Positions 39,746 to 55,269 of a stretch of DNA of 64,000 bases are shown here, one piece after another. The DNA is taken from NCBI RefSeq assembly GCF_000270245.1, contig NC_015635.1, forward strand, positions 5,146,001-5,210,000. The letters run 5' to 3'. Source of the stretch: Microlunatus phosphovorus NM-1 (lineage in GTDB: Bacteria > Actinomycetota > Actinomycetes > Propionibacteriales > Propionibacteriaceae). The position numbers were made by a program, and so were the translations under genes. The notes below the pieces were generated by a model. The model had not been told where the DNA came from and made no database searches. It saw only the letters and a program-made list of their open reading frames with translations. Each line of letters begins with the position of its first letter. Position 1 is the first letter of the stretch.

Positions 39746-40762
39746 TCACGTGGCTGAGCGACGGCTGAGCGAGTGACTGATCTCGGGGATACCCTTGATG
39801 AGTTCCGGCTCCAGATGCAGGTATAGGGTGGTCTTGCGCTTCTGATCAATGTCGCGGAACACGCGGACCACCTGCTCCTCGGTCAGTCCCGTTGCTACGG
39901 CGATTTCCGTTAGCGGCACGTCGTTGTTCTTGCCATACAAGCACAGGTCCATACGCTGGTACGGCAACGAGAAATAGAACTCCTCTTGAGACTGCGGCAA
40001 CGAGTAGGTGTCCGTCGTTGAGGGACGGGTCCGAATGGTCTCTGGGACGCCAAGATGCTCAGCAAGCGCATAGACTTGCGACTTGTAGAGATGGGCGATG
40101 GGCTTGATGTCCGCCGACCCATCGCCCAGCTTCACGAAGAAACCTTGGTCATACTCAAGTCGGTTCGGCGTTCCCGTGGTGACGTAGTTCAGCCGGTCGG
40201 CGTGGTAGTACTCCATCATCTTGCGGACTCGTTGTTTGAAGTTGGTGGCGGCTACAACACCCAGGTAGGCCTCGGTGGAGAGCCGGTGTCGGCTCTGGTT
40301 GCCATCCGGATCCTCGACTACAACGGAGTAGATCCGCAGCGCATCCGACTCGGTGACGCTGGGTAGCACGATCTTCGACTTCCAGCCAGCGCCGTAGTCG
40401 GGAACCACTTTGCGGACCGACTCATCGTATCGGCGGTAACAGCCCGCCGCCTCGAGCGCGTCTGCAATTTCCTCGACCGTGGAGTCAAAGCCGAACGTGT
40501 CGGACACGGACGTACTGAGCTCGATGGTCTCAGGCGACGAGGCTCGCTCTGGCATGTGCAACCCGAAAACTCGCTGTTTGCCTACGGCCCGCACGCAGAG
40601 CGCGGCGGTCACGCTCGAGTCGATTCCCCCTGACAGCGCGATCACGGCACCCTTCCGCTTGGTAGCGGTCAGGTAGGCACGGATGCGTTCGCTGATGCGT
40701 TCGGTTTCCGCCGCCAAATCGATGGCGAGGCTCTCAGGCCCGAACGGGGTGGGCTGTGTCAT
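39746..40762 (-). CDS. nadE: NAD+ synthase, ammonia-dependent type
   Basis: A 338-aa N-type ATP pyrophosphatase without a glutaminase domain. The PP-loop SGGIDSS is at 44-50. NAD-synthase motifs follow: NYVTTGTPNRLEYDQGFFVK, LGDGSADIKPIAHLYKSQVY and RPSTTDTYSLPQSQEEFYF. ATG 40762 lies 29 bp inside the end of asnB, so translation is coupled. The frame extension to 41008 is an asnB shadow. Overlap with an amidotransferase gene suggests it may instead make an amide on a pathway intermediate; authentic NadE activity is equally possible. Confidence 0.85.
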   Translation of the reverse strand: MTQPTPFGPESLAIDLAAETERISERIRAYLTATKRKGAVIALSGGIDSSVTAALCVRAVGKQRVFGLHMPERASSPETIELSTSVSDTFGFDSTVEEIADALEAAGCYRRYDESVRKVVPDYGAGWKSKIVLPSVTESDALRIYSVVVEDPDGNQSRHRLSTEAYLGVVAATNFKQRVRKMMEYYHADRLNYVTTGTPNRLEYDQGFFVKLGDGSADIKPIAHLYKSQVYALAEHLGVPETIRTRPSTTDTYSLPQSQEEFYFSLPYQRMDLCLYGKNNDVPLTEIAVATGLTEEQVVRVFRDIDQKRKTTLYLHLEPELIKGIPEISHSLSRRSAT

Positions 40763-42752
40763 CGGTTTCCCTTTCAGCTGAAACAAAGTCAATGATGTGG
40801 ACTGGCTCTGGCGGCGTCTGAGCACCAACCCACGCTGGGTCGATGATGAACTGCCGATGGATGAGTTGGGTGGACAAAATGGCAAGGACTCGCATGTTGT
40901 CGGTGTTTCCGAACCGGCCGCTGCGAATCCTCGCCTTCGCGACCAGGCTTCCGACCTGTTTCGGGTCGAAGATCCCGCTTGCCCGGAGCGCCGCCGGGGA
41001 GACCACATCCTCCACCCAATCAGATGGCGAGCCGTCAGTGAAGAAGCTCGCAGCGTCCGGCGCTCGGTAAGGTTGCTTGGATCGATCGCGAATCTCGTCT
41101 GGGATCAGATCTGCGAAGGCGACTTTGAGGAGGAACTTCTCATCCAGGCCGAAGAGCTTATGGCGGGCCGGCAGGGTGTTGGCAAACTCAACGACATCCC
41201 GGTCCAGGAACGGGAAGCGTCCCTCGACCGAGTTTGCCATCAGCATCCGATCGCCCTGAGACGCGAGGATGTAGCCAGGCAGTAGCGTCGTCATTTCCAA
41301 CCACTGCGCTCGTGTTAGCGGGTCCCACCGCTGACTGGCTTCAGGTAGCTCATTAGCCAGATCCTGCTGGTTCTCTGTCCCGATCGCATCCCGAACTGCG
41401 GCCGTGAGCATGGTCTTGAGCGCGGAAGTCGATTTCCACCGTGGTCGATGGGACATCGCCGGATCGGCGGCATCCAGATCCTGGCCGAAAAAGCCTCGAG
41501 CGAATGCCGGTGCCTGGCCTGGGTTGCGTGCCATCCACGGATAGAGGAGTTCCGCTGCCCTACTGCGAACCGTGGAGTCTGGATCGCGTGCCCAGAAGTC
41601 ACGTACCTTGGCTTCGCGATAGATGTCGTAGCCGCCGAGGACCTCGTCTGCACCTTCGCCGGTGACAACCACTTTATAGCCACTGGAGCGCACCAGCTTC
41701 GACAGCAGAAAGAGCGGTGCGGGCGCCGACCGGAGGATTGGCGCTTCCGCGTGCCAAACGACGTCCGGGAACACAGTTGCGATGTCGCGATGGGTCACCA
41801 CGATGTCTTGATGATGGGTCCCCAGCTGTTCGACCATGCGCTGCTGATAGATGCCTTCATCGAACTCGGTATCCGCGAACCGCAATGAAAAGGTATCGAG
41901 ATCGGCATCGGTGAAGTGCCGGATCGCAGCTGCCGTGACGGCGGAGTCGATTCCTCCGGACAGGTACGCGCCCACCGGGAAGTCACTTCGCTCGAAACGG
42001 AGCCGGGTCGCGCGGACGACGAGCTCGCGCAAGATCTCGGCGTTCTCCTGTAAGTCCTGACTGGGCTCCTGCCCGCGCGCAGGAAAGTCGATCCGCCAGT
42101 ACGGCTCACACCGAAACCCATCCGCGTCGAAGACTGCGAAATGGCCCGGCGGAAGCTGACTGACACCCTCGAACACCGTCCGTGGCGCGACCGTGGACCA
42201 GTAAGTGAGAATCTGATCGAGTCCGATCGGGTCAAAGGCTCGCGGCACTGATGGATCCGCGAAGATCGCCTTTACCTCGGAGGCGAAGGTGATGCCACTA
42301 TCAGTCAGCCGGTAGAAGAGCGGGCGCACACCCAATCGGTCTCGGGAGAGGATCAACTGGCGCTGGCGGCGATCCCACAGACCGATGGCCCACTGGCCGT
42401 TGAATCTGTTGAAACAATCGGCACCCCACTCCTCCCAGGCATGCACGATCACCTCGGTGTCGCTGTGCGTGGTGAAACGGTGGCCGCGATCGCGGAGTTC
42501 TACAGCCAGTTCGACGTAGTTGAAAATCTCGCCGTTGAACGTCACCCAGAGGCTGCCGTCCTCGTTGCCAATCGGCTGTGCACCCCCGGCAAAGTCGATC
42601 AACGAAAGCCGTGTGTGTCCCAAGATGGCCTGGTGGTCACGAAGGTAACCGCTGCCGTCCGGTCCGCGATGGCTTAGCCGTCCGATCATTGCTGTTGCCA
42701 CGTCCAGATCGGGAGGCGGACCGTTGGTGACGATCCCACATATGCCACACAT
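40734..42752 (-). CDS. asnB: Asparagine synthase-like glutamine amidotransferase
   Basis: A 672-aa class II amidotransferase. Cys2 is the nucleophile (MCGICGIV), and the glutaminase domain includes RLSHRGPDGSG and VTFNGEIFNYVELAVEL. The synthetase PP-loop is YLSGGIDSAVTAAAI, and later GEGADEVLGGYD completes the ATP site. It could make asparagine. However, its start overlaps the stop of a carrier-like gene as TGATG, and it sits with a carrier protein and AMP ligase. An amide-forming role on a carrier-bound or sugar substrate is therefore reasonable. Confidence 0.88.
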   Translation of the reverse strand: MCGICGIVTNGPPPDLDVATAMIGRLSHRGPDGSGYLRDHQAILGHTRLSLIDFAGGAQPIGNEDGSLWVTFNGEIFNYVELAVELRDRGHRFTTHSDTEVIVHAWEEWGADCFNRFNGQWAIGLWDRRQRQLILSRDRLGVRPLFYRLTDSGITFASEVKAIFADPSVPRAFDPIGLDQILTYWSTVAPRTVFEGVSQLPPGHFAVFDADGFRCEPYWRIDFPARGQEPSQDLQENAEILRELVVRATRLRFERSDFPVGAYLSGGIDSAVTAAAIRHFTDADLDTFSLRFADTEFDEGIYQQRMVEQLGTHHQDIVVTHRDIATVFPDVVWHAEAPILRSAPAPLFLLSKLVRSSGYKVVVTGEGADEVLGGYDIYREAKVRDFWARDPDSTVRSRAAELLYPWMARNPGQAPAFARGFFGQDLDAADPAMSHRPRWKSTSALKTMLTAAVRDAIGTENQQDLANELPEASQRWDPLTRAQWLEMTTLLPGYILASQGDRMLMANSVEGRFPFLDRDVVEFANTLPARHKLFGLDEKFLLKVAFADLIPDEIRDRSKQPYRAPDAASFFTDGSPSDWVEDVVSPAALRASGIFDPKQVGSLVAKARIRSGRFGNTDNMRVLAILSTQLIHRQFIIDPAWVGAQTPPEPVHIIDFVSAERETDDTAHPVRA

Positions 42753-43376: not shown

Positions 43377-44918
43377 ATGGCGGTCGACCTCTCATCCGAC
43401 GGAAGACGGGTGCTATCAATGCTGGACAAGGTCAACGTCAGCGACTTCTTGCTGGCTACCGGCGAAGACGACGCGGTCGCCGTGGTGGACGCTCAGCGAC
43501 GCCACACCTATGCCGACCTGCGTCGCGCCGCGGCCCGGCTCGTCGCCGAGTTGCGCCGGGCAGGAGTCGGTCCTGATGCCCGGATCGGCCTGCTCGGCGG
43601 GAACTCGTTGTTCTGGGTCGCCGGCTACCTCGCCGCGATGAAGCTAGGGGTGGTAGTGCCGTTCTCGGACAAGAACGGTGTCGATGACCTTGCTGCCCAG
43701 GCCGATTGGGTGGATTGCGCGGCGGTGCTGATCGATCGCCGCCAGCAACGTCGCCTCGGACCAGCGTTCGGTGACCGTCCGGTTGTCACCGACGCGGTGC
43801 TCGCTGAGGTGGGGGAGTCTAGTTGGCCCACGACAGCATCCGACGCACTCGGAGATGCTGCCTTGATGTTCACCTCCGGCACGACATCACGTCCCAAAGC
43901 CGTGCGAGTGACGCACCAGAATCTAGTCGCGAACACTACCTCGATCACGGAATACCTCAACTTGACGGCAAGCGACCGAATGCTGGTGATCTTGCCATTC
44001 CACTATGTGTTCGGCGCTTCCCTCCTGCACAGCCATCTGGCGGTCGGCGGCAGCCTCGTGTTGTGCAACAGCTACACGTTCCCGGAGACGGCGGTCGATC
44101 TCATCGATAGGGAGGCGTGCACGGGCTTCGCCGGGGTGCCATCGTCCTATCAGCTGTTGCTGCGCGCGAGCAGCTACGGCGCACGACGCTTGCCCACCCT
44201 GCGGAAGATCCAGCAGGCAGGTGGCCGGCTCGCGCCGGCGCTGATAGAGGAGCTTGCAGCTGCCCAGCCTGACGCCGAGTTGTTCGTCATGTACGGGCAG
44301 ACGGAGGCCACTGCGCGGCTTTCCTACCTGCCGCCGCAAGTGCTAGGAGAGAAGCTGGGATCGATTGGCCGGGGGATCCCAGGAGTCACGCTCGAGGTCT
44401 TGGACGAGAACGGAAGACCAGTCGCTCCTGGCGAGCAGGGCGAGATCATTGCTCGAGGCGCCAATATCTCACCGGGGTACTACAACGACCCTGAGGAGAC
44501 GGCGCGCAAGTTTCCCGGCGGAACGCTACGCACGGGAGACTTGGCAACGGTGGATGGTGATGGGTACATCTACATCGTCGGCAGGAGCGGGGATTTCATC
44601 AAGTCCTGGGGCTACCGGATCTCACCGCAACAAATAGAGGAGGTCGCCCTGTCTCATCCGGGAGTGTCGGAAGCGGCAGCGGTCGGACTCCCTGACCCTG
44701 ATGCCGGAGAGTCCGTCACCTTGGCCATCGTCTCCGCACCGGGGACGACACCGGCGGAGGTCGCGAGTCTGCTGGAATTCTTGCGCGCTCGGCTGCCCAA
44801 GCACATGGTCCCAGTGGCCGTCCAAGTGCTCGATGTGTTCCCGCTGACCGCCAGCGGCAAGATCGCCAAGCAAGAACTTCGGGAACTGCTTGCGGGCGTC
44901 GGCTCTGAGGTACCCTGA
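43377..44918 (+). CDS. Class I adenylate-forming acyl (or aminoacyl) ligase
   Basis: A 513-aa ANL-family enzyme activating a carboxylate as AMP ester and passing it to a thiol, presumably the carrier protein at 42958. Motifs: A3 MFTSGTTSRPKAVRVTHQNL, A5 VMYGQTEATARLSYLP, A7 TLRTGDLATVDGDGYIYIVG, and A10 LTASGKIAKQEL with the catalytic Lys. Its size and arrangement compare with DltA or acyl-CoA ligases. The substrate cannot be read by eye. ATG 43377 is used; ATG 43419 has a somewhat better ribosome site. Confidence 0.9.
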   Translation: MAVDLSSDGRRVLSMLDKVNVSDFLLATGEDDAVAVVDAQRRHTYADLRRAAARLVAELRRAGVGPDARIGLLGGNSLFWVAGYLAAMKLGVVVPFSDKNGVDDLAAQADWVDCAAVLIDRRQQRRLGPAFGDRPVVTDAVLAEVGESSWPTTASDALGDAALMFTSGTTSRPKAVRVTHQNLVANTTSITEYLNLTASDRMLVILPFHYVFGASLLHSHLAVGGSLVLCNSYTFPETAVDLIDREACTGFAGVPSSYQLLLRASSYGARRLPTLRKIQQAGGRLAPALIEELAAAQPDAELFVMYGQTEATARLSYLPPQVLGEKLGSIGRGIPGVTLEVLDENGRPVAPGEQGEIIARGANISPGYYNDPEETARKFPGGTLRTGDLATVDGDGYIYIVGRSGDFIKSWGYRISPQQIEEVALSHPGVSEAAAVGLPDPDAGESVTLAIVSAPGTTPAEVASLLEFLRARLPKHMVPVAVQVLDVFPLTASGKIAKQELRELLAGVGSEVP

Positions 44919-44930
44919 GTAGATCTGTTT

Positions 44931-44951
44931 GTTCTAGGGGGGAGAACGATC
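44931..44951 (+). promoter_or_regulatory. GTTC-NN-GGGGGA leader motif before the SGNH gene
   Basis: The sequence GTTCTAGGGGGGAGAACG runs directly into GTG 44952 and contains its ribosome site. Similar motifs precede starts at 14479, 31897, 52219 and 63478, so it may be a shared leader. Confidence 0.4.
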
Positions 44952-45776
44952 GTGAAGACCAGTTTCTGGTCACGCTTGGTCATGGGTGTCGCAGCGGTAG
45001 GCATCCTCGGGGCAGTCTCGCTGTACTTCTTGTGGGATCCCAAAAGGAGCTATGAGCCTGCGCCGGACACAGCCGCATCGACGATCACTACCGAGGTCCT
45101 CGGCAAGGCATCTGGGGCCAGGATCTACTTCGGTCACAGGTCGGTCGGCAAGAATATTCTCTCGGGCGTCTCAGACGTGTACGCCGCCAAAGGGGTGACT
45201 CAGCCCGAGGTGGTTGAGGTTCCGATTGGTGGCTCAGTTCCAAAGGTGGCCGGTGAGGGCACCATCTTACATACGCAGATCGGCGAGAACGGGAATCCGG
45301 CTGGCAAGCTGGTCAATTTCGACTCCATGGTGCGATCTGGCATCGCCGATCAGGTCGATATAGCGCTGCTCAAGTTCTGTTATGTCGACATCAAGTGGAA
45401 CACCGATGTGGATGCTCTATTCGCTGAGTACAAGCAGACGATGGCTGACTTGGAGCGGGATTACCCGAATGTTCGATTCCTGCACGCCACAGTCCCCCTG
45501 ACCGTTGGTCCAGTCGGAATCAAGGGTCACATCAAAGCGGTGGTGGGGCGTGACGATAATGCAACGCGCACGCGGTACAACGAACTGATCCGAGGCAACT
45601 TCGATGCCGACCAGGTGTTCGATCTGGCTGCCGTCGAGGCAACCTCCCCTGACGGTGAGGCGCTCACATCCCTGTATCCTGGCTATAGCAGTGACGGCGC
45701 ACACCTGAACGCAAGCGGCGCCTCGAAGGTTGCGGTGGTGCTGCTGGAGACGGTTGCCCGGACCGGGCAAGCCTGA
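44952..45776 (+). CDS. Membrane-anchored SGNH-hydrolase-like protein
   Basis: A 274-aa protein with an N-terminal TM anchor (about 8-27) and an extracytoplasmic domain of SGNH type. A GHRSVGKNILSGV motif replaces the usual GDS block. A central ALLKFCYVDIKWNTD segment follows, and DGAHLNASGASKV near the end supplies the expected Asp and His. The equivalent membrane SGNH protein in D-alanylation systems is DltD. It could transfer or remove an acyl group on a surface glycan. GTG 44952 follows a strong GGGGGGAG site. Confidence 0.72.
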   Translation: MKTSFWSRLVMGVAAVGILGAVSLYFLWDPKRSYEPAPDTAASTITTEVLGKASGARIYFGHRSVGKNILSGVSDVYAAKGVTQPEVVEVPIGGSVPKVAGEGTILHTQIGENGNPAGKLVNFDSMVRSGIADQVDIALLKFCYVDIKWNTDVDALFAEYKQTMADLERDYPNVRFLHATVPLTVGPVGIKGHIKAVVGRDDNATRTRYNELIRGNFDADQVFDLAAVEATSPDGEALTSLYPGYSSDGAHLNASGASKVAVVLLETVARTGQA

Positions 45777-45790
45777 ACCGAACCCTAGCC

Positions 45791-46540
45791 ATGACCGATT
45801 GGGCATTGAAGGTTCCCCGGCTCAGCAACGAGGATCTGCGGACCGTGGGGGCCTCGCGCATCTTCTTCGCCCACCAGTCCGTTGGTCGGAACGTCCTAAG
45901 CGGGATCAATCCCCTGTATGCGACCGCGGGTGAGATCGCGCCTCAGATCGTCGAGACTCGAGGCCCACTACGCACATCTCGCTCCGTACTTGCGCATGCC
46001 GGGGTCGGCAAGAACCGCGACCCGCTCAGCAAGCTAACTGAGTTCGCTGACATCTTGAACGACGGGCTCGGCGCCAACCTCGATGCTGCAGCGCTGAAGT
46101 TCTGCTATGCCGATGTGACTGCGGACACAGACATAGACGCACTTTTTGACGCCTACTGGACTACGCTCAACGGCCTCCAGGAGCGGTATCCGGACGTCAG
46201 ATTCGTTCATGCGACGGTGCCATTGACGACTGACCGCGGCTGGAAAGCCAAGACGAAGGCGCTGCTGGGTCAGAGCGACCGGCGGGGCCCTGCTGACAAC
46301 CTCGCCCGTGAACGTTACAACTCCCTGATGCGAGCCCGCTGCGGCGGTGCCGGCATGTTGTTCGACATCGCCGCAGTGGAGGCGACCATCGAGCACCGGC
46401 CGATGGTGCGTCGCCTGAAGGGTGAGCGGTACTTCGTCCTCAACCGCGCGCTGAGCACGGATGCGGGACATCTCAACAGTGTTGGCTGCAAGGCGGCCGC
46501 CAACGAGTTTATCCGTGTTTTCGCACTGGCTCTTCGCTAG
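45791..46540 (+). CDS. Second SGNH-like paralogue, without membrane anchor
   Basis: A 249-aa paralogue of the preceding protein. Shared blocks are FFAHQSVGRNVLSGINPLYA, ALKFCYADVTADTDIDALFD, RYPDVRFVHATVPLT and TDAGHLNSVGCKAA. It lacks any TM or signal, so it should be cytoplasmic. It retains the Ser, the Asp and His of the last block, and the aligned Cys. The gene starts 15 bp after the first copy ends. A cytoplasmic partner could load or edit the carrier-bound acyl group; this is inference. Confidence 0.7.
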   Translation: MTDWALKVPRLSNEDLRTVGASRIFFAHQSVGRNVLSGINPLYATAGEIAPQIVETRGPLRTSRSVLAHAGVGKNRDPLSKLTEFADILNDGLGANLDAAALKFCYADVTADTDIDALFDAYWTTLNGLQERYPDVRFVHATVPLTTDRGWKAKTKALLGQSDRRGPADNLARERYNSLMRARCGGAGMLFDIAAVEATIEHRPMVRRLKGERYFVLNRALSTDAGHLNSVGCKAAANEFIRVFALALR

Positions 46541-46550
46541 TTTCTGCTCG

Positions 46551-46928
46551 GTGGGCCTGCACGGGATTGGTATCGACGTTGCGGACGTGCATCGCATCGC
46601 CCGGTTGATCGAGCGCTACGGGGCGCGATTCACCCATCGTTGGTTTGTGCCTGAGGAAGTGGCGCAGTGCGACGCCAGTGAGTCACCCACGCACGCTTTC
46701 GCGGTCAGATTCGCTGCAAAAGAGGCAGTCTGGAAATCGCTTGGAATGAAGTGGGATGGCTCCGTGCCATGGCGATCGATCATGATCCTCCACACCGACA
46801 AGGTGCCTACCGTCGATCTAGTTGGGGATGTGGCTGTTGCCGCTCGTGCGCTCGGGGCGTTGAAGATCAGCGTTGCCGTCTCGGTACGCGATGGCCGCGC
46901 CTTCGCTGTTGCGATGGCGGAGTTCTGA
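46551..46928 (+). CDS. acpS: Phosphopantetheinyl transferase, AcpS type
   Basis: Attaches 4'-phosphopantetheine from CoA to a carrier-protein serine. The family start GLHGIGIDVADVHRIARLIE supplies the metal-binding Asp9. FAVRFAAKEAVWKSLGM supplies the catalytic Glu58 and Lys. Length is 125 aa from GTG 46551; the frame extends upstream inside the preceding gene. A copy here, 3.3 kb from the carrier gene, is probably dedicated to it, unless this is the genome's only AcpS. Confidence 0.9.
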   Translation: MGLHGIGIDVADVHRIARLIERYGARFTHRWFVPEEVAQCDASESPTHAFAVRFAAKEAVWKSLGMKWDGSVPWRSIMILHTDKVPTVDLVGDVAVAARALGALKISVAVSVRDGRAFAVAMAEF

Positions 46929-47016: not shown

Positions 47017-48870
47017 TCAACTATCGGCCATGCCAACTCGCACCGTGCTCTGCAACCGATACAACTCTGCGTAACGCCCCTCTTCGCGGATCAACTCCGC
47101 GTGGGTGCCCTGCTCGACAACCTTCCCCTCATGCATCACATAGATGCGATCAGCACCCCGAACCGTGGCAAAGCGGTGCGAGATGAAGAGTGCCGTGCGT
47201 CCGCGCAACGCCGCACGCAATGTGGTGAACAGGTCATGCTCCGCCCGCGGATCTAGTGACGCCGTTGGCTCGTCCAGGATCACCAAGGGTGCGTCCCGAT
47301 AGAACGAACGTGCGAGGGCCACGCGCTGCCACTGTCCTCCTGACAGGTCATGGCCACCGGAGAACATGCGCGACAGGATCGTGTCGAAGCCGTTCGGTAG
47401 TCCGTCGAGCGCCCGTTCCGCGCCGGCGGACCGAGCCGCAAAGCGGACTCTCTCCGGATCAATAGGCATCCCGATCCGACCGGCCGCGATGTTCTCAGTT
47501 CCGGTGAGGGCGAAGCGTACGAAGTCCTGGAAGACGACGGTGACTCGTTCGCGGACGCTGGACGGGCTGAACTCCGAAAGATCGTGGTCGTCCCATCGGA
47601 TGCTGCCAGCAGTGGGCTCATAGAGACCTGCGATGATCTTGGCCAGCGTGGTCTTCCCGGAGCCGTTCTCCCCCACCAGCGCGACAATCTCTCCCGCATT
47701 GAGCTCCAGATCGACTCCGCACAGCGCCGGTCTGGGGGACTCAGGGTAGGAGAAGGTCACTCCACCCACTCGAATGGTCTGGAATCCATCAGGTGCCTCT
47801 GCGCCGCGGTCCTCCTCCAGTGCCTGCGCACCGAGGGCGAGGAAGTCATCCAGGTCATCGAGGAAGAGCCCCGACTCGAAGACCGACTGTGCGCCGCGGA
47901 ACACCAGCTGGACCTGAGTCGTCAGCATCCGGATGGCGACCAACGCCGCTCCGGCTCCTGCGATGTCGAGAGACCCGCGCGAGATCAGCCAGATCATCAC
48001 CGTCAAGGTCGCGCCCAAGACGACGGCTGCGCCGAGCTGGCCCAACACGCTCAGGCTGGTCCTGCGGCGCACGTGGTCACCGAGGTCAGTCAGATAGGCG
48101 GCGTAGAGGTCGTTGAAGCGTCCCGTGAGCCAGGGCCCGAGGCCGAGTGATCGGACCTCCTTCGCCTCGTCTCGACCGAGCTGGAGCAGGCCGAAGTACG
48201 ACCGCAGGCGGAGGGCAGGGGTTTGCTTGACCGAGAAATCGAACTCGAGTCTGGACTCGCGTCGACTCGCCAGCAACACAGGCACCCCACCGATTGCGAC
48301 CAACGGCAGGAGCACCGGGGCGAGGGTGAACAGTGCCGCCCCGAGCGCCACGCTGGCGACCAACGCCCCTGCCATGGACAGCAGTCCTTGTGTCACCTGA
48401 TATGGCCTGCTGAGTGCACTCATCTGCACCCGACTGAGTTGGTTGAAGAACTCCGACGACTCGAAGTGACGCAGGCTGACCGTGGTCGAGACACCCAGCA
48501 CTCGATTCCACATCGCGCGAGCAACGTGTTCGCCGAGCAGTCGTTGAAGCTGAGTCTGAAATGAACTGCAGATCGAGGAGAGACCAGTCAGAATCGCAAG
48601 CACGATGATCGGCACGACCACTCGAGATGTGTCAGCGTGCTCATTCAAGGCCAGGATTGCCTGCAGAACCGATCTCACAGCGAGCACCTGAGCGACTAGC
48701 AACCCGGCCGCCGCGAGCTGAAGGACGATGAGTCCGACGAAGAGCCGACGACCCGCTGACCAGACAAGGCCCACGCTGGTGAATACGAGTCTCTTGAGCT
48801 GCCCTAGTGACTTCCGCCTGTATCTCGCGGCTGCGCGCAGCGTTAGCGGATCAATAGCTCCGGTGTCCAT
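47017..48870 (-). CDS. ABC exporter, probable lasso peptide exporter
   Basis: A 617-aa half-transporter. The TM domain covers about 35-330. In the ATPase domain, Walker A is VGENGSGKTT at about 400, the Q-loop is in VTVVFQDFVRFAL, the signature is LSGGQWQR, Walker B is LVILDEPTASLD and the switch His is in FISHRFATV. No C39 peptidase domain is fused, fitting lasso systems where B2 removes the leader. It is the last gene of the minus-strand lasso set, 135 bp after the kinase-like gene. Substrate is inferred from position. Confidence 0.85.
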   Translation of the reverse strand: MDTGAIDPLTLRAAARYRRKSLGQLKRLVFTSVGLVWSAGRRLFVGLIVLQLAAAGLLVAQVLAVRSVLQAILALNEHADTSRVVVPIIVLAILTGLSSICSSFQTQLQRLLGEHVARAMWNRVLGVSTTVSLRHFESSEFFNQLSRVQMSALSRPYQVTQGLLSMAGALVASVALGAALFTLAPVLLPLVAIGGVPVLLASRRESRLEFDFSVKQTPALRLRSYFGLLQLGRDEAKEVRSLGLGPWLTGRFNDLYAAYLTDLGDHVRRRTSLSVLGQLGAAVVLGATLTVMIWLISRGSLDIAGAGAALVAIRMLTTQVQLVFRGAQSVFESGLFLDDLDDFLALGAQALEEDRGAEAPDGFQTIRVGGVTFSYPESPRPALCGVDLELNAGEIVALVGENGSGKTTLAKIIAGLYEPTAGSIRWDDHDLSEFSPSSVRERVTVVFQDFVRFALTGTENIAAGRIGMPIDPERVRFAARSAGAERALDGLPNGFDTILSRMFSGGHDLSGGQWQRVALARSFYRDAPLVILDEPTASLDPRAEHDLFTTLRAALRGRTALFISHRFATVRGADRIYVMHEGKVVEQGTHAELIREEGRYAELYRLQSTVRVGMADS

Positions 48871-49005
48871 CTGACCGCCTTCCGTATCGCAGTCTTTCGT
48901 GCATTCGTCAAGCTGCCCGAACTCTGGCCTCGACTACCGAATGCGAGTGTCTCGACTGAATCTATGACCTGCCGTCGCCTGAACTAAATCTATGCCGCAG
49001 GTGCA

Positions 49006-50004
49006 TCACTGTGGCGAATCGGCAACATCGGCAGAGTCCACGACCCGCGATTCACGTCTGTTGACGCTGACGCCCATCCGATCCAGCAGGGTATCGACCA
49101 AGTCATCGGGAAAGGGCGGTCCCCACGGCAGTTCGGCAACATGCACCGGCACCTGAGTGACGACATCGGCCAGCTGGTCGAATTGGCGTCGGACCGCAGC
49201 CGCATCCTTCCAGCCGAGGAGTCGTGGAAACCGAGACAGCAGCAGCAGCGCCTCTGAGGCGCGAAGTCGCGTGACCGAGGTCGAGTCCGCGGTCGCTGAC
49301 TTGTCCGGAATCGGCACCACAATCGCCGCGAGCGGAATGGTCTCGTCGACGGCAGTTGCCGTTGCCAAGGCATCGCGGGCATCGCCCGTCAACCGCCGAT
49401 CCGGGGCGACATCGAACTGTTCCATCAACTCTGCAGCCGACTTGCGTAGACGCACCTCCGTAGCACCGAGGGCACAGCGGAACTGCCCTTCGCCTGGAGT
49501 CAGACGGAGCAGGTCATCGGTGATGAGGAGAGCGCCGCGGGAGCAGAACAGGGTAGCCAGAGTTGACTTGCCCATGCCCGAGCCGCCGATGAACGCGACG
49601 GCGCCCTGATCCACCTGCACGGCGCTGGCGTGCAACACCGTTGCCCCCCGCAACGTCAGCAGCAGCGCCAAGACTGTGCCGGCCACCAGCACCGACAGCA
49701 GGCTTAGGTCCACACCTTGCACGGGATGAACGGTCAGGGTGGACAAACTGGCATCGAACCGGACATCGCAAGATCCGTAGAAACGAGCCACATACACACC
49801 GTCGGTGTGACCGATGGTGTAGTGCTGCTTCTTCGTCTGAAGGTGAAGAATCGGTGTACCGCTCGGTCGGTCGTCGACAGCTTGGATCGGCGCGCCGAGA
49901 CGCACCTCGACGTCAATGTCACCACCTGGTGGGACCGGGCGATATTGATACAGAGGCAACTCGGATGAGATATTCAGGTCATAGAGACGACACTCGTAGG
50001 TCAC
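49006..50004 (-). CDS. HPr kinase-like protein of the lasso cluster
   Basis: A 332-aa protein with an HPr kinase/phosphorylase-type P-loop, IGGSGMGKSTLA at about 139-150, preceded by VLHASAVQVDQGAVAFIGG, and an acidic ITDDLLRL segment at about 163. In paeninodin-type clusters such kinases phosphorylate the C-terminal Ser of the lasso precursor, and the precursor here does end in Ser. The N-terminal 120 residues look like a beta-rich recognition part. GTG 50004 overlaps the B2 stop as GTGA. Confidence 0.82.
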   Translation of the reverse strand: MTYECRLYDLNISSELPLYQYRPVPPGGDIDVEVRLGAPIQAVDDRPSGTPILHLQTKKQHYTIGHTDGVYVARFYGSCDVRFDASLSTLTVHPVQGVDLSLLSVLVAGTVLALLLTLRGATVLHASAVQVDQGAVAFIGGSGMGKSTLATLFCSRGALLITDDLLRLTPGEGQFRCALGATEVRLRKSAAELMEQFDVAPDRRLTGDARDALATATAVDETIPLAAIVVPIPDKSATADSTSVTRLRASEALLLLSRFPRLLGWKDAAAVRRQFDQLADVVTQVPVHVAELPWGPPFPDDLVDTLLDRMGVSVNRRESRVVDSADVADSPQ

Positions 50005-50492
50005 GGCGCCATTCCGGTCGGTGGAGTGGAGAGCGGGAGGTAGGTCCCGGCAGCCCGCATCGGGTCGATCACGGTGTCACCTACCGTGAGCCATGCGTGG
50101 GCACGGACCTCTGACCCGACCTTCGCGACACCAACGTGCAGATTCGGGTTCAGTCCACGGATCCGCTGACCGCTGACAAGCGCCTGCCGCAGGCAGGTGT
50201 CACCGAGGGGCCAGTGCCGCATCACCGTCCTGGTCGCTCGAATCCTCCGGCGGGCCGCTGCCGGCAGGACAACGCGCTCTGGACCGGCACTCGTCGAAGG
50301 TCGGTTCCACCCGGCATCACCATCCATCGCTAGCGGTACCCCGAGGAACTTCGCCAGGCGCGTCAGTGTCGTGACACGCAGGCCGACCTCGACGCAGACG
50401 GCGACCGCCGCCGCGGTGAGCAGGTCAAAAGCACGGAGCAGCCGGCTACGGATCCCCGGACGCAAGACGCCTCGTACGAGCGAGCGCGTCAT
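50001..50492 (-). CDS. Lasso peptide B2 protein (transglutaminase-like leader protease)
   Basis: A 163-aa cysteine protease that cuts the leader from the lasso precursor. The catalytic Cys100 is in LGDTCLRQALVSGQRIR, His132 in EVRAHAWLTVGDT and a probable Asp143 in VIDPM, the usual C-H-D set. The N-terminal hydrophobic AFDLLTAAAVAVCVEVGLR segment may bind the partner or the membrane. ATG 50492 overlaps the cyclase stop as ATGA. The longer frame to 50570 would overlap the cyclase by 80 bp and is rejected. Confidence 0.88.
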   Translation of the reverse strand: MTRSLVRGVLRPGIRSRLLRAFDLLTAAAVAVCVEVGLRVTTLTRLAKFLGVPLAMDGDAGWNRPSTSAGPERVVLPAAARRRIRATRTVMRHWPLGDTCLRQALVSGQRIRGLNPNLHVGVAKVGSEVRAHAWLTVGDTVIDPMRAAGTYLPLSTPPTGMAP

Positions 50493-51652
50493 CCGTCTCG
50501 GCCTGTCGTACCCAGCCAAGCCGCGTGCAACAGCATGCCGGTAGCCATCGTCGGTTGGTCCGAGAGCCACACCTCACGCAACTTATCAACGTCGACCAGA
50601 CTCCGGTCCACGCCGGTTCCGTCCCACTGACGAGCGAACCGGCGCGTCGTATCCGTTGCGTGGGCCTGGTTGAACCATGCCTTCGTGGCTCGGCTGAGCA
50701 CCGCTGCAGGAAGGACGTCCGCGAAGAGGAACCTCATCGTCGCCGTGCGACTGTTGAACCCCCACCGTCCACCATCGCGCGCCAATGTCGACACGAACCG
50801 ATGATCGAGCAACGGGTCGCTCGCCCTGATCCCGTACTCAGATGCGGCAGCCGCATGGTTGTGGGAGATGGTTGCGAACGACCGTTTGGTCGCCACAGCC
50901 CAGGTTGCCGAGTCACTGCGTAGCGGCTCGGTGGACTCGTCATCGGCAACTCGACTCGCGTGTTCCGCCAACGCCGTCGGTTGGAGCCAACGGCTCTGAA
51001 CCGACTGGGCCGCGAGCTTGGCCACCTTCCGACGTCGGATCGGTCGCGGCACGATGGCGGTCGCGGCATGCTTGAGCAGTGTCCGCGTCGGCCGGCGGCG
51101 GTTCCGCAGCCGGGTCAGCGGCGTGCCCCGATGCGAGCCCAGCACCGCGTCTCCCCCCTCGCCCGTCAGCAGGGATCCGCCGCGTGCGTGTTGGAACATC
51201 ACGTCGTGTGATTGGAGCGCGGGTGGCCAGATGAGCCCGCGGGCTCGCAACCCGGCGAGCGCTGCCGCACCGAGCAAGTCGGACTCTCCCTGGCGTAGCT
51301 CCAGCCGAATCCACTCGGTCAGCTCGAGGTGATCAATGACCATCCGCTGCCACGAGGACTCATCAGTGTCCGGCAGGTCAGGATAGATGCGGGTGATCGG
51401 CACAGGAAGGTCGAAGCCCTCGCGCCGCGCCAGATCGGTTGCCGCCGCCAGCACGGCCGATGAGTCTCGCCCACCGGAGAAGGTCACATAGCAGGGACCA
51501 TGCTGCAGCGCCGGCCTGATGGCATCGTCCAACGCCTGACGCGCCGACTTCCCAGGCTCCGGTCGAGCGACGTCCTGATGGCCATAGACCCAGCCGACGG
51601 CGACCTCGAGTGGGTCACAGCGTAGGTAGCCACTCGCGAGCCCGCTGATCAC
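50489..51652 (-). CDS. Lasso cyclase (asparagine-synthase-like C protein), without glutaminase domain
   Basis: Activates the ring Asp or Glu side chain with ATP and closes the macrolactam. The PP-loop FSGGRDSSAVLAAA is at 58-71, with SLLTGEGGDAVLGSHRG at about 166 and the typical KAWFNQAH segment near the C terminus. It has 387 aa and lacks nearly all of the degenerate glutaminase domain that lasso cyclases usually retain. Only about 50 residues precede the PP-loop domain. GTG 51652 is chosen for its GGAGGAGG site. Confidence 0.87.
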   Translation of the reverse strand: MISGLASGYLRCDPLEVAVGWVYGHQDVARPEPGKSARQALDDAIRPALQHGPCYVTFSGGRDSSAVLAAATDLARREGFDLPVPITRIYPDLPDTDESSWQRMVIDHLELTEWIRLELRQGESDLLGAAALAGLRARGLIWPPALQSHDVMFQHARGGSLLTGEGGDAVLGSHRGTPLTRLRNRRRPTRTLLKHAATAIVPRPIRRRKVAKLAAQSVQSRWLQPTALAEHASRVADDESTEPLRSDSATWAVATKRSFATISHNHAAAASEYGIRASDPLLDHRFVSTLARDGGRWGFNSRTATMRFLFADVLPAAVLSRATKAWFNQAHATDTTRRFARQWDGTGVDRSLVDVDKLREVWLSDQPTMATGMLLHAAWLGTTGRDG

Positions 51653-51724
51653 TCCTCCTCCTGCCTGCACAACAGCACGGGAGCTGCACTCCAGGTGGAT
51701 GGAGCTCCCGGCTCGGCGATTGCA

Positions 51725-51892
51725 CTACGACAACTCTCCGTACGAGATGGAGATCTGGTGGCCCCAGATGGAGAAGACGAATGTGTCGTCATTCCCCCTG
51801 ATGCCCTCACCCAGGGTCAGATCCTTCACCGACCCAACTTCGGTCAGTCGCGGGCTTTCATACTGCGGTCGAGGCTGAACTGATTCGCTCAT
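51725..51892 (-). CDS. Lasso peptide precursor
   Basis: A 55-aa peptide. The leader has the lasso RRE-binding pattern YxxPxLxxxGxxxxLT, seen as YESPRLTEVGSVKDLT. Thr26 would be the conserved penultimate leader residue. Cleavage after Leu27 leaves a 28-residue core starting GEGIRGNDDTFVFSIWG. Gly1 with Asp8 or Asp9 can form the 8- or 9-residue ring, Phe11, Phe13 and Trp16 are candidate plugs, and the last residue is Ser. ATG 51892 follows AGAGGGGGTGAG. It lies between the RRE and cyclase genes on the same strand. Confidence 0.93.
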   Translation of the reverse strand: MSESVQPRPQYESPRLTEVGSVKDLTLGEGIRGNDDTFVFSIWGHQISISYGELS

Positions 51893-51961
51893 GTGCACTC
51901 ACCCCCTCTACAAGTGTTGTTCCTCAAGCCGCACGGCCGCGGCTGGACATGGGAATGCCAA

Positions 51962-52219
51962 TCAGGAGTGAACGAGCAGTCCGCGGCGATCAAGGTCGTC
52001 CACGAAGGCGCGCACATCGCGCTCGGCATCAGTTTGCGAAATCGCGAACTGGTTCATCAGGGCGTCGGTAAGCTCGGCAGCAGACTTCTCCACGGCCAGC
52101 TGCTTCATCAAGAAGGTGGCGCTGGCGTTGGTCGTCAAGTACGTCGACGAGCGCAGATCCAAGACGACGAGCTCGCTGTCGATCTCCCGCCACGTCAAGT
52201 CATCGGCACGGAGCTTCAT
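51962..52219 (-). CDS. Lasso peptide B1 protein (PqqD-like RRE)
   Basis: An 85-aa PqqD-fold protein that binds the precursor leader and presents it to B2. The start LTWREIDSELVVLDLRSSTY gives the three-stranded sheet with the family LDL..stY pattern, followed by LTTNASATFLMKQL and a helical C terminus (AERDVRAFVDDLDRRGLL). ATG 52219 follows GGGGGAAAC. It is the first gene of the lasso operon; its stop is 69 bp before the precursor start. Confidence 0.9.
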   Translation of the reverse strand: MKLRADDLTWREIDSELVVLDLRSSTYLTTNASATFLMKQLAVEKSAAELTDALMNQFAISQTDAERDVRAFVDDLDRRGLLVHS

Positions 52220-52328: not shown

Positions 52329-53648
52329 TCATCGCCTTCCAAGAGCTCGATAGGTCCAGCCTGCGCTGCGCCAAGCCTCCACGTCGAGCGCGTTGCGGCC
52401 ATCCAGAATCCGGGGCAACTTGACCCAGCGCTTCACCTCGGTCGGATCCAGTGACACGTACTGCTTCCACTCGGTCAGCAGCAGCACCAGCTCAGCATCA
52501 GCGACCGCCTCTTCGACGGTCTCGACGAAGCGAAGATCGGGCCACTTGGCTGCGGCGTTCTCGATCGCCTTTGGATCGGTGACCACCACGTCCGCGCCTT
52601 GCAGCGACATCTGCGCCGCCACGCTCAGCGCCGGGGAGTCACGAACGTCGTCGCTCTCAGGCTTGAATGCGGCCCCCAGGACGGCGATCCGGCGTCCGAC
52701 GATCGACCCGTCGCAGACCTCGCGCGCCAGGTCGACCATGCGGACCCTGCGGCGCAGGTTGATCGAGTCGACCTCACGCAGGAAGGTCAGCGCCTGGTCG
52801 ACGCCGAGCTCGCCGGCTCGTGCCATGAACGCCCGGATGTCCTTGGGCAGGCAGCCACCGCCGAAGCCGAGGCCGGCGTTGAGGAACTGACGACCGATCC
52901 GGGCATCGTGCCCGATCGCGTTCGCGAGCTGCACGACGTCACCGCCGGTTGCCTCACACAGCTCGGCCATGGCATTGATGAAGGAGATCTTGGTCGCCAA
53001 GAACGAGTTCGCCGCAACCTTGACCAGCTGCGCGGTCGAATAGTCGGTAACGATCAACGGCGTGCCGTCAGCGAGCGTCTTGGCATAGACCCGACTGAGC
53101 AGGGCGGTCGCTCTCTCGCCGGCAGCGTCATCAGGAACTCCATAAACCAGGCGGTCTGGATGGAAGGTGTCCTTGACCGCGTGACCCTCCCGCAGGAACT
53201 CCGGGTTCCAAGCCAAGGTCGCGGTGGGCTCCGCTTCGGCCAGCATCTCTGCCAGTCGCTCAGCGGTGCCCACCGGCACCGTTGACTTCCCGACCACCAG
53301 GTCGCCCGGTTTCACCACGGCGAGCAGGGCGGTCATCGCCGCATCGACCGCCCGCAGGTCGGCTTTGTTCTCGCCCCGCTTCTGCGGCGTGCCGACGCAG
53401 ATGAAGTGGATGGTCGCTGCCGCAGCGTCGGTGATGTCGCTGGAGAATTGCAGCCGTCCCGTCGCCACCGTCTCAGCCAGCAGCTCGGGCAGCTCGGGCT
53501 CGAAGAACGGCGGCTTACCGCCGGCGAGCGCTTCGACCTTACGCGCATCGACGTCGACGCCGATCACATCGTGGCCGAGCGCCGCCATACAGGCAGCGTG
53601 CACCGCTCCCAGATAGCCGCAACCGATCACGGAGATGTGCAGGGTCAT
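52329..53648 (-). CDS. ugd: UDP-glucose 6-dehydrogenase
   Basis: Oxidises UDP-glucose to UDP-glucuronate with two NAD+. The Rossmann motif VIGCGYLGAVHA is at the N terminus. GKSTVPVGTAERL and WNPEFLREGHAVKDTFHPDR follow. The catalytic Cys is in AGLGFGGGCLPKDIRAF at about residue 265, and the second nucleotide domain holds VLGAAFKPESDDVRDSPAL. Length is 439 aa, typical. It supplies a uronic acid donor to the second locus. Its start overlaps the stop of the upstream glycosyltransferase gene by 4 bp. Confidence 0.95.
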   Translation of the reverse strand: MTLHISVIGCGYLGAVHAACMAALGHDVIGVDVDARKVEALAGGKPPFFEPELPELLAETVATGRLQFSSDITDAAAATIHFICVGTPQKRGENKADLRAVDAAMTALLAVVKPGDLVVGKSTVPVGTAERLAEMLAEAEPTATLAWNPEFLREGHAVKDTFHPDRLVYGVPDDAAGERATALLSRVYAKTLADGTPLIVTDYSTAQLVKVAANSFLATKISFINAMAELCEATGGDVVQLANAIGHDARIGRQFLNAGLGFGGGCLPKDIRAFMARAGELGVDQALTFLREVDSINLRRRVRMVDLAREVCDGSIVGRRIAVLGAAFKPESDDVRDSPALSVAAQMSLQGADVVVTDPKAIENAAAKWPDLRFVETVEEAVADAELVLLLTEWKQYVSLDPTEVKRWVKLPRILDGRNALDVEAWRSAGWTYRALGRR

Positions 53649-54973
53649 CGGGCACTCCTCTCGCGGATGAACCGCTCGAACTCAACGTCATCATCAAGCG
53701 GCACATAGGTCCTGCCGCGTTGGTCGGTCTGGCCGGTGTCACGCCGCCCATCAGGCAGCTCAGCCTGGGTCCTGCCGGTCAGCTCAGCGTAAACGCCAAG
53801 GTAGGCCGCAGCTTGCGGCCGCCAGTCGAGTTCAGTGGACACGCGTTCGCGAGCCCGTTGTGCCATGGCGATCCGCAACTCGGGATCGTCCAGCAGCCTC
53901 TCGACCGCATCGGCGAACGCACCGACATCTCCCGAAGGGACGTACAGCACAGAGTCTCCGCCGGAGACCCGCGTCTCGACCAGGTCGAAGGAGACCGACG
54001 GCAGTGCGTACGACATGTACTCCATCGTCTTGTTCATGGTGGACACGTCGTTCAACGGCGTCTTCAGATCCGGGCACAGGCCCACATCAGCGACGCTCAG
54101 GTGATCGGCGATCATCGCTTTGTCCGCCCGACCGGTGAAAGTGACGTAGTCGTCAAGACCCAGCTGTGTGCAACGCGCCCGCAGGTCCACGTAGCAGTCA
54201 CCAAAGCCGAGCAGTGTCGCCTCGAGATCGGCCCTCCCCCGTCGGTGCACGAGTTCTTCCATCACGTCCAGGACGACATCCACGCCGTCTTGCGGACCCA
54301 TGATGCCCAGATAGGCGAGGCTGAACCTACGGTCACCGGTAGCGACCGTCGACGGATAGACCGGCCGCATCTGCTGAGTGTCCGGTCCGCTGCGTACGAC
54401 GGTGACCTCGGCCGGCTTCCGCCCACCGCGACGGACCGCGACCGCCTTGTACGACTCGTTGGTGGAGATCACCCGCTTCGCGGTCTTGAAGGTCATCCGC
54501 TCCAACCAGCGCAGCCCGGCGTACTCGACCTTCTTCAGTGTGCTGCTCGGTTCTCCGAACCGGGAGATGAACAGCTCCGGATTCAAGTCGTGGTGGTCAA
54601 AGACGAAGGTGACGCCCCGGAGCTTCCAGAGCAACGCCAGCGCCCAGTAGGTATCTGGTGGGTTGCAGGCTTGCATGATCGTAAAGTTTTGGCGCCGCCA
54701 GACCTTGAGCGACAGTCCCGCAGTTCGGAGCCAGCTGTAGACGAACTCCACTACAAAACCCGCCAGCCCCCTGGCTTCGGGTGCCGGCTTGTACTTGTAG
54801 ATATGGACGCCATCCAGCTCTTGATAATCCGGATCGTCCGGCCCCTTGGGGCAGATGACGCTCACGTCATATCCTGCCGACGTCAATGCCTGACACTCGA
54901 GCCACACTCGCCGATCCAGTGGGACCGGGAGATTCTGCACGATGATCAAGACATGGTCGGCTCGACTCGCCAC
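53645..54973 (-). CDS. Glycosyltransferase family 4
   Basis: A GT-B retaining enzyme of about 442 aa. VLIIVQNLPVPLDRRVWLEC opens the acceptor domain. The donor domain holds RFSLAYLGIMGPQDGVDVVL, VTFTGRADKAMIADHLSVAD and the family motif TMEYMSYALPSVSFDLVETR with the E(x7)E-type positions partly replaced. It probably adds one sugar to the repeat unit on the cytoplasmic face. GTG 54973 begins at the domain; the frame continues to a TTG at 55057 with no convincing protein content. Confidence 0.85.
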   Translation of the reverse strand: MASRADHVLIIVQNLPVPLDRRVWLECQALTSAGYDVSVICPKGPDDPDYQELDGVHIYKYKPAPEARGLAGFVVEFVYSWLRTAGLSLKVWRRQNFTIMQACNPPDTYWALALLWKLRGVTFVFDHHDLNPELFISRFGEPSSTLKKVEYAGLRWLERMTFKTAKRVISTNESYKAVAVRRGGRKPAEVTVVRSGPDTQQMRPVYPSTVATGDRRFSLAYLGIMGPQDGVDVVLDVMEELVHRRGRADLEATLLGFGDCYVDLRARCTQLGLDDYVTFTGRADKAMIADHLSVADVGLCPDLKTPLNDVSTMNKTMEYMSYALPSVSFDLVETRVSGGDSVLYVPSGDVGAFADAVERLLDDPELRIAMAQRARERVSTELDWRPQAAAYLGVYAELTGRTQAELPDGRRDTGQTDQRGRTYVPLDDDVEFERFIRERSAR

Positions 54974-55269
54974 AACTCGGCTCAATCCAGTCCACCCTAC
55001 CCTGTTTCGTGCTGGTGCCGCACGTTCGACTTGATGTTCACGAAGCTCCCTGACCAACCCGGCGACCGCCCATGCGTCGCCAGCAGCAACGTCCCGGAGA
55101 TCGACAGCTGTCCCGAGCCCGCCACGTTACATTCTGCCAACCACGCCCCGGATTCGTCAGCCAAACTCAGGAAAAGTCCGAGCCAGGACAGATCCCTCCA
55201 TCACCCGGCTGCGAGTGCCTCCGCCGGAAGGTTCTTCTGCTATCGCGATCTTGCCGTGGGTTAGGCCGT

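Follow-up and report, generated by a model that had tools for sequence, protein, structure and literature searches.

Phosphorylated lasso peptides have been described from Firmicutes/Bacillota and from Proteobacteria, including Bradymonadales, and have been predicted in Acidobacteriaceae (PMC8498205, PMC10368454, PMC13381572; these and all other papers are cited from excerpts). In paeninodin-type systems, the kinase requires a His-Lys-Asp-Asp set of residues and phosphorylates the precursor at its C-terminal Ser (PMC9266682). For pseudomycoidin, an enzyme annotated as a nucleotidyltransferase adds one or two hexoses to the terminal phosphate (PMC9266682, PMC8498205). The clusters of paeninodin-type peptides and of their linear relatives often lie inside capsular polysaccharide loci of Bacilli, and the role of paeninodins is stated to be unknown (PMC13381572). 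Here, we analyse a stretch of 64,000 nucleotides from the single 5,683,123-base contig NC_015635.1 (positions 5,146,001 to 5,210,000, hereafter the window), whose minus strand carries a lasso-peptide gene cluster with an HPr-kinase-like gene at 47017-52219. We consider it likely that this cluster makes a C-terminally phosphorylated lasso peptide and represents a family, probably actinobacterial, that runs parallel to the paeninodin family of Bacillota.

The lasso gene cluster of the window

A sequence-only reading of the window had proposed six lasso open reading frames (ORFs) in this interval, and the ORF check bore out both their places and their order. From 52219 down to 47017 these encode a RiPP recognition element (RRE) protein, the precursor, the cyclase, the B2 peptidase, the HPr-kinase-like protein and the ABC exporter (Table 1). 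Family models for the leader, RRE, cyclase and B2 likewise agree with the proposed identity of the cluster. It had also been called complete; the set is probably incomplete, because a nucleotidyltransferase gene 25 kb away probably belongs to it (see below).

The precursor, proposed on account of its YxxPxL leader, matches NF033521 with an E-value of 2.1e-7 (30.6 bits against a cut-off of 19). Its ATG at 51892 lies behind a AGAGGGGG stretch, with an in-frame GTG 6 nt upstream. Cleavage is predicted after Leu27, and the resulting 28-residue core would fall within the 18-40 residues seen in the family of kinase-bearing lasso clusters. The RRE protein additionally matches the solved B1 proteins TfuB1 (9e-8) and TbiB1 (6e-6); TfuB1, its best solved match, is presumably from Thermobifida. 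B2 is the sole Transglut_core3 match in the genome and carries what we take to be the expected triad (Cys in GDTCLRQAL, His in AHAWL and Asp in VIDP). A count of two motifs in B2 proteins, 24/31 for each, considered only a single matched stretch in each frame, and we draw no conclusion from it. A promoter and terminator scan gave results similar to those of shuffled sequence (1 versus 0.5 and 1 versus 2.3).

Relatives of the cluster share Asp9 in the core

A kinase search profile was built from two kinases, those of the window and of a Pseudonocardiales locus (L002) that had been found by its precursor. At an E-value of 1e-8, the kinase was detected in 11/198 genomes of the family and, at 1e-20, in 13/391 genomes of the order, 20/394 of the class and 6/396 of the phylum; each count includes the window's own genome, the samples overlap and are not additive, and the counts are lower bounds because only 5-11 first-look candidates per genome were scored. 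Within the genus, the kinase occurs only in the window's genome (1/20). In total, 43 loci were examined: the window, L002 and 41 loci obtained via kinase matches (L042-L077, L083-L087). Matches to RRE, cyclase, B2 and kinase are found together in 30 of the 43, with an ABC match as well in 23, and a cyclase is present in 32.

Precursors were called strictly, i.e., the leader pattern had to lie near the cyclase and on the same strand, with Y, F or H but not W allowed in the leader (a looser scan did allow W). This identified 41 precursor genes in 31/43 loci (the window, L002 and 29 of the 41 others), representing 35 distinct cores. Thus, homologous precursors do stand beside the same enzymes in relatives, the absence of which the sequence-only reading had named as evidence against itself, and we regard the precursor as more than a chance match because leader-motif precursors lie on the cyclase strand in so many loci. 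No strict precursor was found in the other 12 loci, eleven of which have no cyclase match (L047, L050, L051, L066, L069, L070, L072, L084-L087); in the twelfth, L068, the contig begins at the cyclase. Two tandem precursors occur in 10 of the 31 precursor-positive loci. In family f23 (L052-L056, L058-L064; genome sizes 4.7-7.7 Mb), tandem pairs in which each precursor has a C-terminal Ser are present at 10 of 12 loci, and many of these precursors have Gly/Pro-rich tails.

Asp is found at position 9 in 34 of the 35 distinct cores and Gly or Ala at position 1 in 33. Two earlier suggestions for the precursor, Thr at position -2 and Gly1 as first core residue, hold up. For the ring acceptor, Asp8 and Asp9 had both been considered: Asp9 is retained, and Asp8 is rejected on conservation, position 8 being variable. 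The most likely ring would therefore join Gly1 to Asp9, since Asp9 is kept and position 8 is free; it would be 9-membered and leave a tail of 19 residues, the lower of the two lengths first proposed (19-20). The closest core among those found (L042) has 21 of 28 residues in common with that of the window. When the window and L002 are left aside, the figures are 32/33 for Asp9, 31/33 for Gly/Ala1 and 32/33 for a C-terminal Ser.

The cluster belongs to a scattered family of kinase-bearing lasso clusters, which we call probably actinobacterial because L002 is from Pseudonocardiales, the best solved match of the RRE is TfuB1 and the closest matches of a same-class control cyclase are Streptomyces plasmid genes. 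Neither the kinase nor the short cyclase gave a match in plasmid searches. Among the matches listed, which cover open-licence full texts, there was no paper on a kinase-bearing YxxP lasso family.

The kinase is associated with a C-terminal Ser

The window core and 33 of the other distinct cores (34/35 in total) end in Ser. For comparison, we used lasso loci around B2 genes of the class sample (found in 75 of 296 genomes, at 97 places), taking 60 of the 97 places as controls (down to rank 66 by E-value, minus six skipped). No kinase match was found in 54 of these 60 loci, 28 of which gave a strict precursor, and none of the 28 ends in Ser. The kinase gene itself overlaps the B2 gene by a few bases in the same direction, and the residues H125, K146, S147, D163 and D164 of the window kinase are kept in 42, 42, 39, 41 and 42 of 43 sequences, respectively. 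The intact kinase motif and the nearly constant C-terminal Ser lend indirect support to the phosphate that the sequence-only reading had thought possible, and they argue strongly that it would be carried by core Ser28. No solved structure matches the kinase or the cyclase by sequence at an E-value of 0.01.

Two further observations stand apart. The second precursor of L083 contains a cysteine, and its neighbours include a kinase that has diverged and another cyclase of the short form (L083 2290-2613 and 133-1296, both minus strand). L161 and L162 hold B2, kinase and nucleotidyltransferase genes, together with candidate cores that are very short, rich in Gly, Ile and Asp, and terminated by Gly-Ser; no cyclase motif was found in these two loci, which possibly make phosphorylated peptides of a different kind.

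A nucleotidyltransferase 25 kb away probably belongs to the pathway

In the genome G740, the frame of a PF14907 nucleotidyltransferase meets the end of the kinase frame. An iterated profile started from this enzyme matches 20 of the 42 non-window loci and one ORF of the window, the sole PF14907 protein of the genome. In ten cyclase-bearing loci, the nucleotidyltransferase and kinase genes are immediate neighbours, 0-71 bases apart. It is present in five of the 60 control loci, all among the six with a kinase match, and in none of the 54 kinase-free ones. The window enzyme shares 40.6-46.7% identity with those of ten loci, including that of G740, and 23-30% with those of seven others; in three the aligned stretch is too short for a figure.

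We then asked for PF14907 in 15 kinase-bearing genomes, i.e., 13 without a match in the slices and the known cases G740 and G531. All 15 have it at an E-value of 3e-33 or better, on the kinase's contig in 10 (from adjacent to 38 kb away) and on another contig of a fragmented assembly in five (G521, G486, G500, G485, G429). Within the genus, a strong PF14907 match is found only in the window's genome (1/20) and weak ones in four others (1.9e-9 at best). The distance in the window fits the habit of the family, because PF14907 lies up to 38 kb from the kinase in relatives. The enzyme is thus probably an outlying member of the lasso pathway, and we predict that it modifies the phosphate in a PsmN-like step. 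A plasmid search with the window enzyme gave only two partial matches with less than 30% identity.

Several observations weigh against reading the cluster as one for a C-terminally phosphorylated lasso peptide. The sequences of the family are related, so that the counts are not independent, and there are exceptions among them: the core of L048 carries Asn at position 9, that of L049 ends in Ser-Arg, and the second precursor of L083, which lies on the strand opposite the cyclases and outside the count, has Asp9 with a C-terminal Gly. In three control loci with a distant kinase match, the precursors end in Ser, Ser and Gly (the last being L175). The controls are the better-scoring B2 genes only, and the unused lower-scoring places hold both kinase-type and other kinase-free B2 genes. 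BsfK, a diverged relative of the kinase, phosphorylates Ser3 and not the C-terminal end (PMC10368454), which means that the presence of a kinase gene is not enough to tell where the phosphate goes. AlphaFold models of kinase and cyclase, made from two-sequence alignments, were too poor (mean pLDDT, the predicted local distance difference test, of 36.5 and 38.6) and were discarded. The product, the phosphate and the ring are predictions from the genes.

The kinase moreover scores below every curated HPrK cut-off (26.5 bits versus 200 for TIGR04355, the best NCBIfam model; 2.8e-5 and 24.2 bits versus 33.3 for PF07475), and the nucleotidyltransferase is encoded at a distance of 25 kb, in the midst of sugar genes. 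Both facts would suit an ordinary, unphosphorylated lasso peptide in a locus where these two proteins work for the polysaccharide instead. We regard this as very unlikely in view of the overlap between kinase and B2 genes in the same direction, the way in which the kinase tracks the C-terminal Ser (34/35 versus 0/28) and the ten cyclase-bearing loci in which the nucleotidyltransferase adjoins the kinase.

The cyclase lacks an N-terminal region

The cyclases of the family are without some 150-200 N-terminal residues present in ordinary lasso cyclases. In the window protein, PF00733 covers residues 44-370 only and 64 residues precede SGGRDSS (65-71); the Pfam scan gave no amidotransferase domain. 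In relatives, 56-195 residues (median 83) separate the motif from the preceding stop codon, which gives an upper bound; 32 of 33 sequences of the family have the motif. Control cyclases have at least 213 residues from the first possible start to the motif (37 ORFs from 36 of the 60 loci, with a PP-loop pattern that excluded Arg after SGG), and the short-cyclase profile matched only ORFs of 566 residues or more in the controls. The window cyclase therefore does not have the full length that is a common trait of the controls, a trait that is no formal class definition.

Such an enzyme might thread no lasso at all, its product being a plain head-to-side-chain macrolactam, or linear like the polyphosphorylated peptides of Bacilli. 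The short region before the PP-loop, at most 56-195 residues, points this way, as does the existence in Bacilli of linear relatives with kinase, RRE and nucleoside triphosphate (NTP) transferase but no cyclase (PMC13381572). Against it, Asp9 and Gly/Ala1 are conserved and the active-site residues of the cyclase are intact, the PP-loop, G170, E171, G173, D174 and K330 being kept in at least 32 of 33 sequences; we judge a non-lasso product to be unlikely. The short cyclases also raise the question of whether lasso cyclases require their N-terminal region for threading at all.

The clusters recur near polysaccharide genes

The lasso genes of the window are embedded in a surface-polysaccharide locus. 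Their nearest upstream neighbours, which share their orientation, are a sugar nucleotide dehydrogenase gene and a GT4 glycosyltransferase gene that we used as marker of the locus (Table 1), followed by genes for a further GT4, a MurJ-like flippase, a deacetylase, another GT4, a Wzy-type ligase and a GH16 protein. The other flank holds a holo-ACP synthase, an amidotransferase, an acyl-CoA ligase, a GT2, a pyruvyl transferase, a further GT2, a hexapeptide acetyltransferase-like gene and Wzy.

Strong matches (<1e-50) to genes of this locus occur in the slices of seven of the 42 other loci (L057, L065, L066, L073, L074, L076, L083) and in none of the 60 control loci, most of which are covered by somewhat shorter slices. 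The GT4 marker was matched in 22 of 28 genomes asked, the own genome included, at one place each; no match was obtained in the other six (G146, G121, G109, G294, G300, G385). It lies on the kinase's contig in 13 of the 22, the own genome again included (G446, G362, G000, G740, G878, G650, G331, G623, G600, G531, G576, G558, G471), and in every one of these the two are 3.5-45 kb apart. The case of G446 is weaker, as neither a short cyclase nor a precursor is seen at its locus. Ten ORFs were scanned from the interval that separates lasso cluster and marker in G531; two of them encode GT2 enzymes, and the others include genes for a polysaccharide-synthesis flippase, an FrhB-type protein and an Asn synthase, while three of the ten have no Pfam match. 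The marker is on another contig in nine of the 22 genomes. For six of these linkage is undecided (G485, G486, G631, G521, G615, G608); in the three others (G040, G055, G046), same-family genomes with long contigs, marker and kinase are clearly unlinked. A second locus gene (45791-46540) was matched in nine of the same 28 genomes, the own one included, at 4, 19 and 31 kb from the kinase in G300, G146 and G109 and on other contigs in five, and acyl-CoA ligase matches of 1e-150 or lower were found in G294, G300 and G146.

The linkage may be a passenger effect, i.e., the cluster may have been inherited in place without any joint work with the polysaccharide. This would agree with the three unlinked genomes and the six without a marker match, with strong locus-gene matches in the slices of only seven of 42 other loci, and with the fact that six of the 13 linked genomes, which span seven families, come from one family, so that linkage events are fewer than 13. 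It is harder to reconcile with linkage in six families besides the own (five without G446) at 3.5-45 kb and with differing gene order, with the second B2 genes of G558 and G471, which have no kinase match and lie 1.6 and 4.0 Mb from the marker, with the lack of strong locus-gene matches in control loci, and with the same association reported in Bacilli (PMC13381572). We hold a passenger effect to be a serious, if doubtful, possibility. Since the polysaccharide link has been published for Bacilli, it is not in itself new; its recurrence in a second group is the addition.

Some neighbouring genes deserve mention in their own right. The Asn synthetase at 40734-42752 gives a sub-cut-off match to exosortase-system amidotransferases; in G300 and G146, homologs of it are found in the vicinity of the lasso cluster. 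Homologs of the genes at 43377-46928 occur near some kinase-type lasso clusters; the two related proteins in this row (44952-45776 and 45791-46540) have no Pfam match. Acyl-CoA ligases in nine control loci (1e-29 to 1e-37) were set aside as generic AMP-binding enzymes.

Table 1. Genes of the lasso pathway and selected neighbours, in window positions
Feature	Coordinates	Strand	Match or remark
B1/RRE protein (PqqD-like), leader binding predicted	51962-52219	-	PF05402 2e-15
Precursor, 55 residues	51725-51892	-	leader 1-27, including YESPRLTEVGSVKDLTL; core 28-55, GEGIRGNDDTFVFSIWGHQISISYGELS
C protein, ATP-dependent lasso cyclase, 393 residues, short form	50489-51670	-	PF00733 5e-15
B2 leader peptidase	50001-50570	-	NF033537 3e-13, PF13471 5e-12
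HPr-kinase-like precursor kinase	49006-50004	-	HprK-related models 3e-6 to 7e-5, all below cut-off
MsbA-like ABC exporter	47017-48870	-	PF00005 1e-33; TIGR02203 3e-76 (below TIGR02203 cut-off)
NTP_transf_5 nucleotidyltransferase	21080-22216	-	PF14907 1.1e-41
UDP-glucose/GDP-mannose dehydrogenase, directly upstream, same direction	52329-53648	-	PF03721/PF00984/PF03720
GT4 glycosyltransferase, marker of the polysaccharide locus	53645-55057	-	PF13692
Asn synthetase, full-length amidotransferase type (GATase_7 + Asn_synthase)	40734-42752	-	part of the surrounding polysaccharide locus
Acyl-CoA ligase, two related proteins and holo-ACP synthase in a row	43377-46928	+	

Proposed pathway

We infer every chemical step, and the role of the peptide, as follows. 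The RRE protein would hold the YxxPxL leader. On the still linear precursor, the HPr-kinase-like enzyme would place a phosphate on the side chain of core Ser28, the final residue, and the nucleotidyltransferase would then transfer a hexose or a nucleotide to the Ser28 phosphate. B2 would cut after Leu27, and the short cyclase would activate Asp9 with ATP and link it to the Gly1 amine, closing the ring around the 19-residue tail. The calculated monoisotopic mass of the core is 3083.462 Da for the linear form, 3065.452 Da for the lasso and 3145.418 Da for the lasso bearing one phosphate. The finished peptide would be exported by the ABC protein and, because its genes sit inside a surface-polysaccharide locus, would most likely act at, or together with, cell-envelope polysaccharide.

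A bolder proposal is that, in two phyla, kinase-type lasso peptides take a direct part in the assembly of surface polysaccharide, with the nucleotidyltransferase coupling the lasso to sugar via the terminal phosphate. We consider this rather unlikely; if true, the lasso peptide would be a cap, anchor or conjugate on the polysaccharide, or a regulator of its export, and not a secreted antibiotic. With a further family of this kind, a cell-surface function becomes testable by genetics outside Bacilli.

Comparison with known systems

The window adds a further scattered, probably actinobacterial family with the same logic of kinase, Ser and nucleotidyltransferase and the same habit of lying in polysaccharide loci. 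It resembles the paeninodin family (PadeA/K/B1/B2/C; ThcoK) in its split B1/B2, its kinase with His-Lys-Asp-Asp (HPrK homology coming from sub-cut-off matches only) and its C-terminal Ser (PMC9266682, PMC13381572), and also in its setting, paeninodin clusters often being found in capsular polysaccharide loci (PMC13381572). Unlike that family, whose WxxP leader is nearly invariant, the window has the leader YESP, and Y is found in 41 of 41 strict precursors; it also probably comes from another phylum, paeninodins being stated, in the excerpt, to be restricted to Bacillota (PMC13381572). The short form of the window cyclase may be a further difference. Because of the YxxP leader and the restriction of paeninodins to Bacillota, we do not place the cluster in their family.

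Pseudomycoidin (PsmK, PsmN) likewise pairs a kinase with a nucleotidyltransferase, which there act on the C-terminal phospho-Ser (PMC9266682, PMC8498205). PsmN is comparable to the predicted PF14907 step by role, and, unlike in pseudomycoidin, the window enzyme is encoded 25 kb away, though beside the kinase in ten relatives' loci. The linear polyphosphorylated peptides (lpp) of Bacilli share an RRE, an HprK-like kinase, an NTP transferase, an MsbA-like exporter and a place in capsular loci; they differ in having no cyclase, a signal-peptidase-like leader peptidase and phosphorylation at Ser3 (PMC13381572). With ordinary lasso clusters, fusilassin-like and others, the window has in common the leader motif, an RRE matching TfuB1, B2 and the cyclase, whereas ordinary clusters have a longer cyclase, no kinase match in 54 of 60 control loci and no C-terminal Ser in any of 28 precursors.

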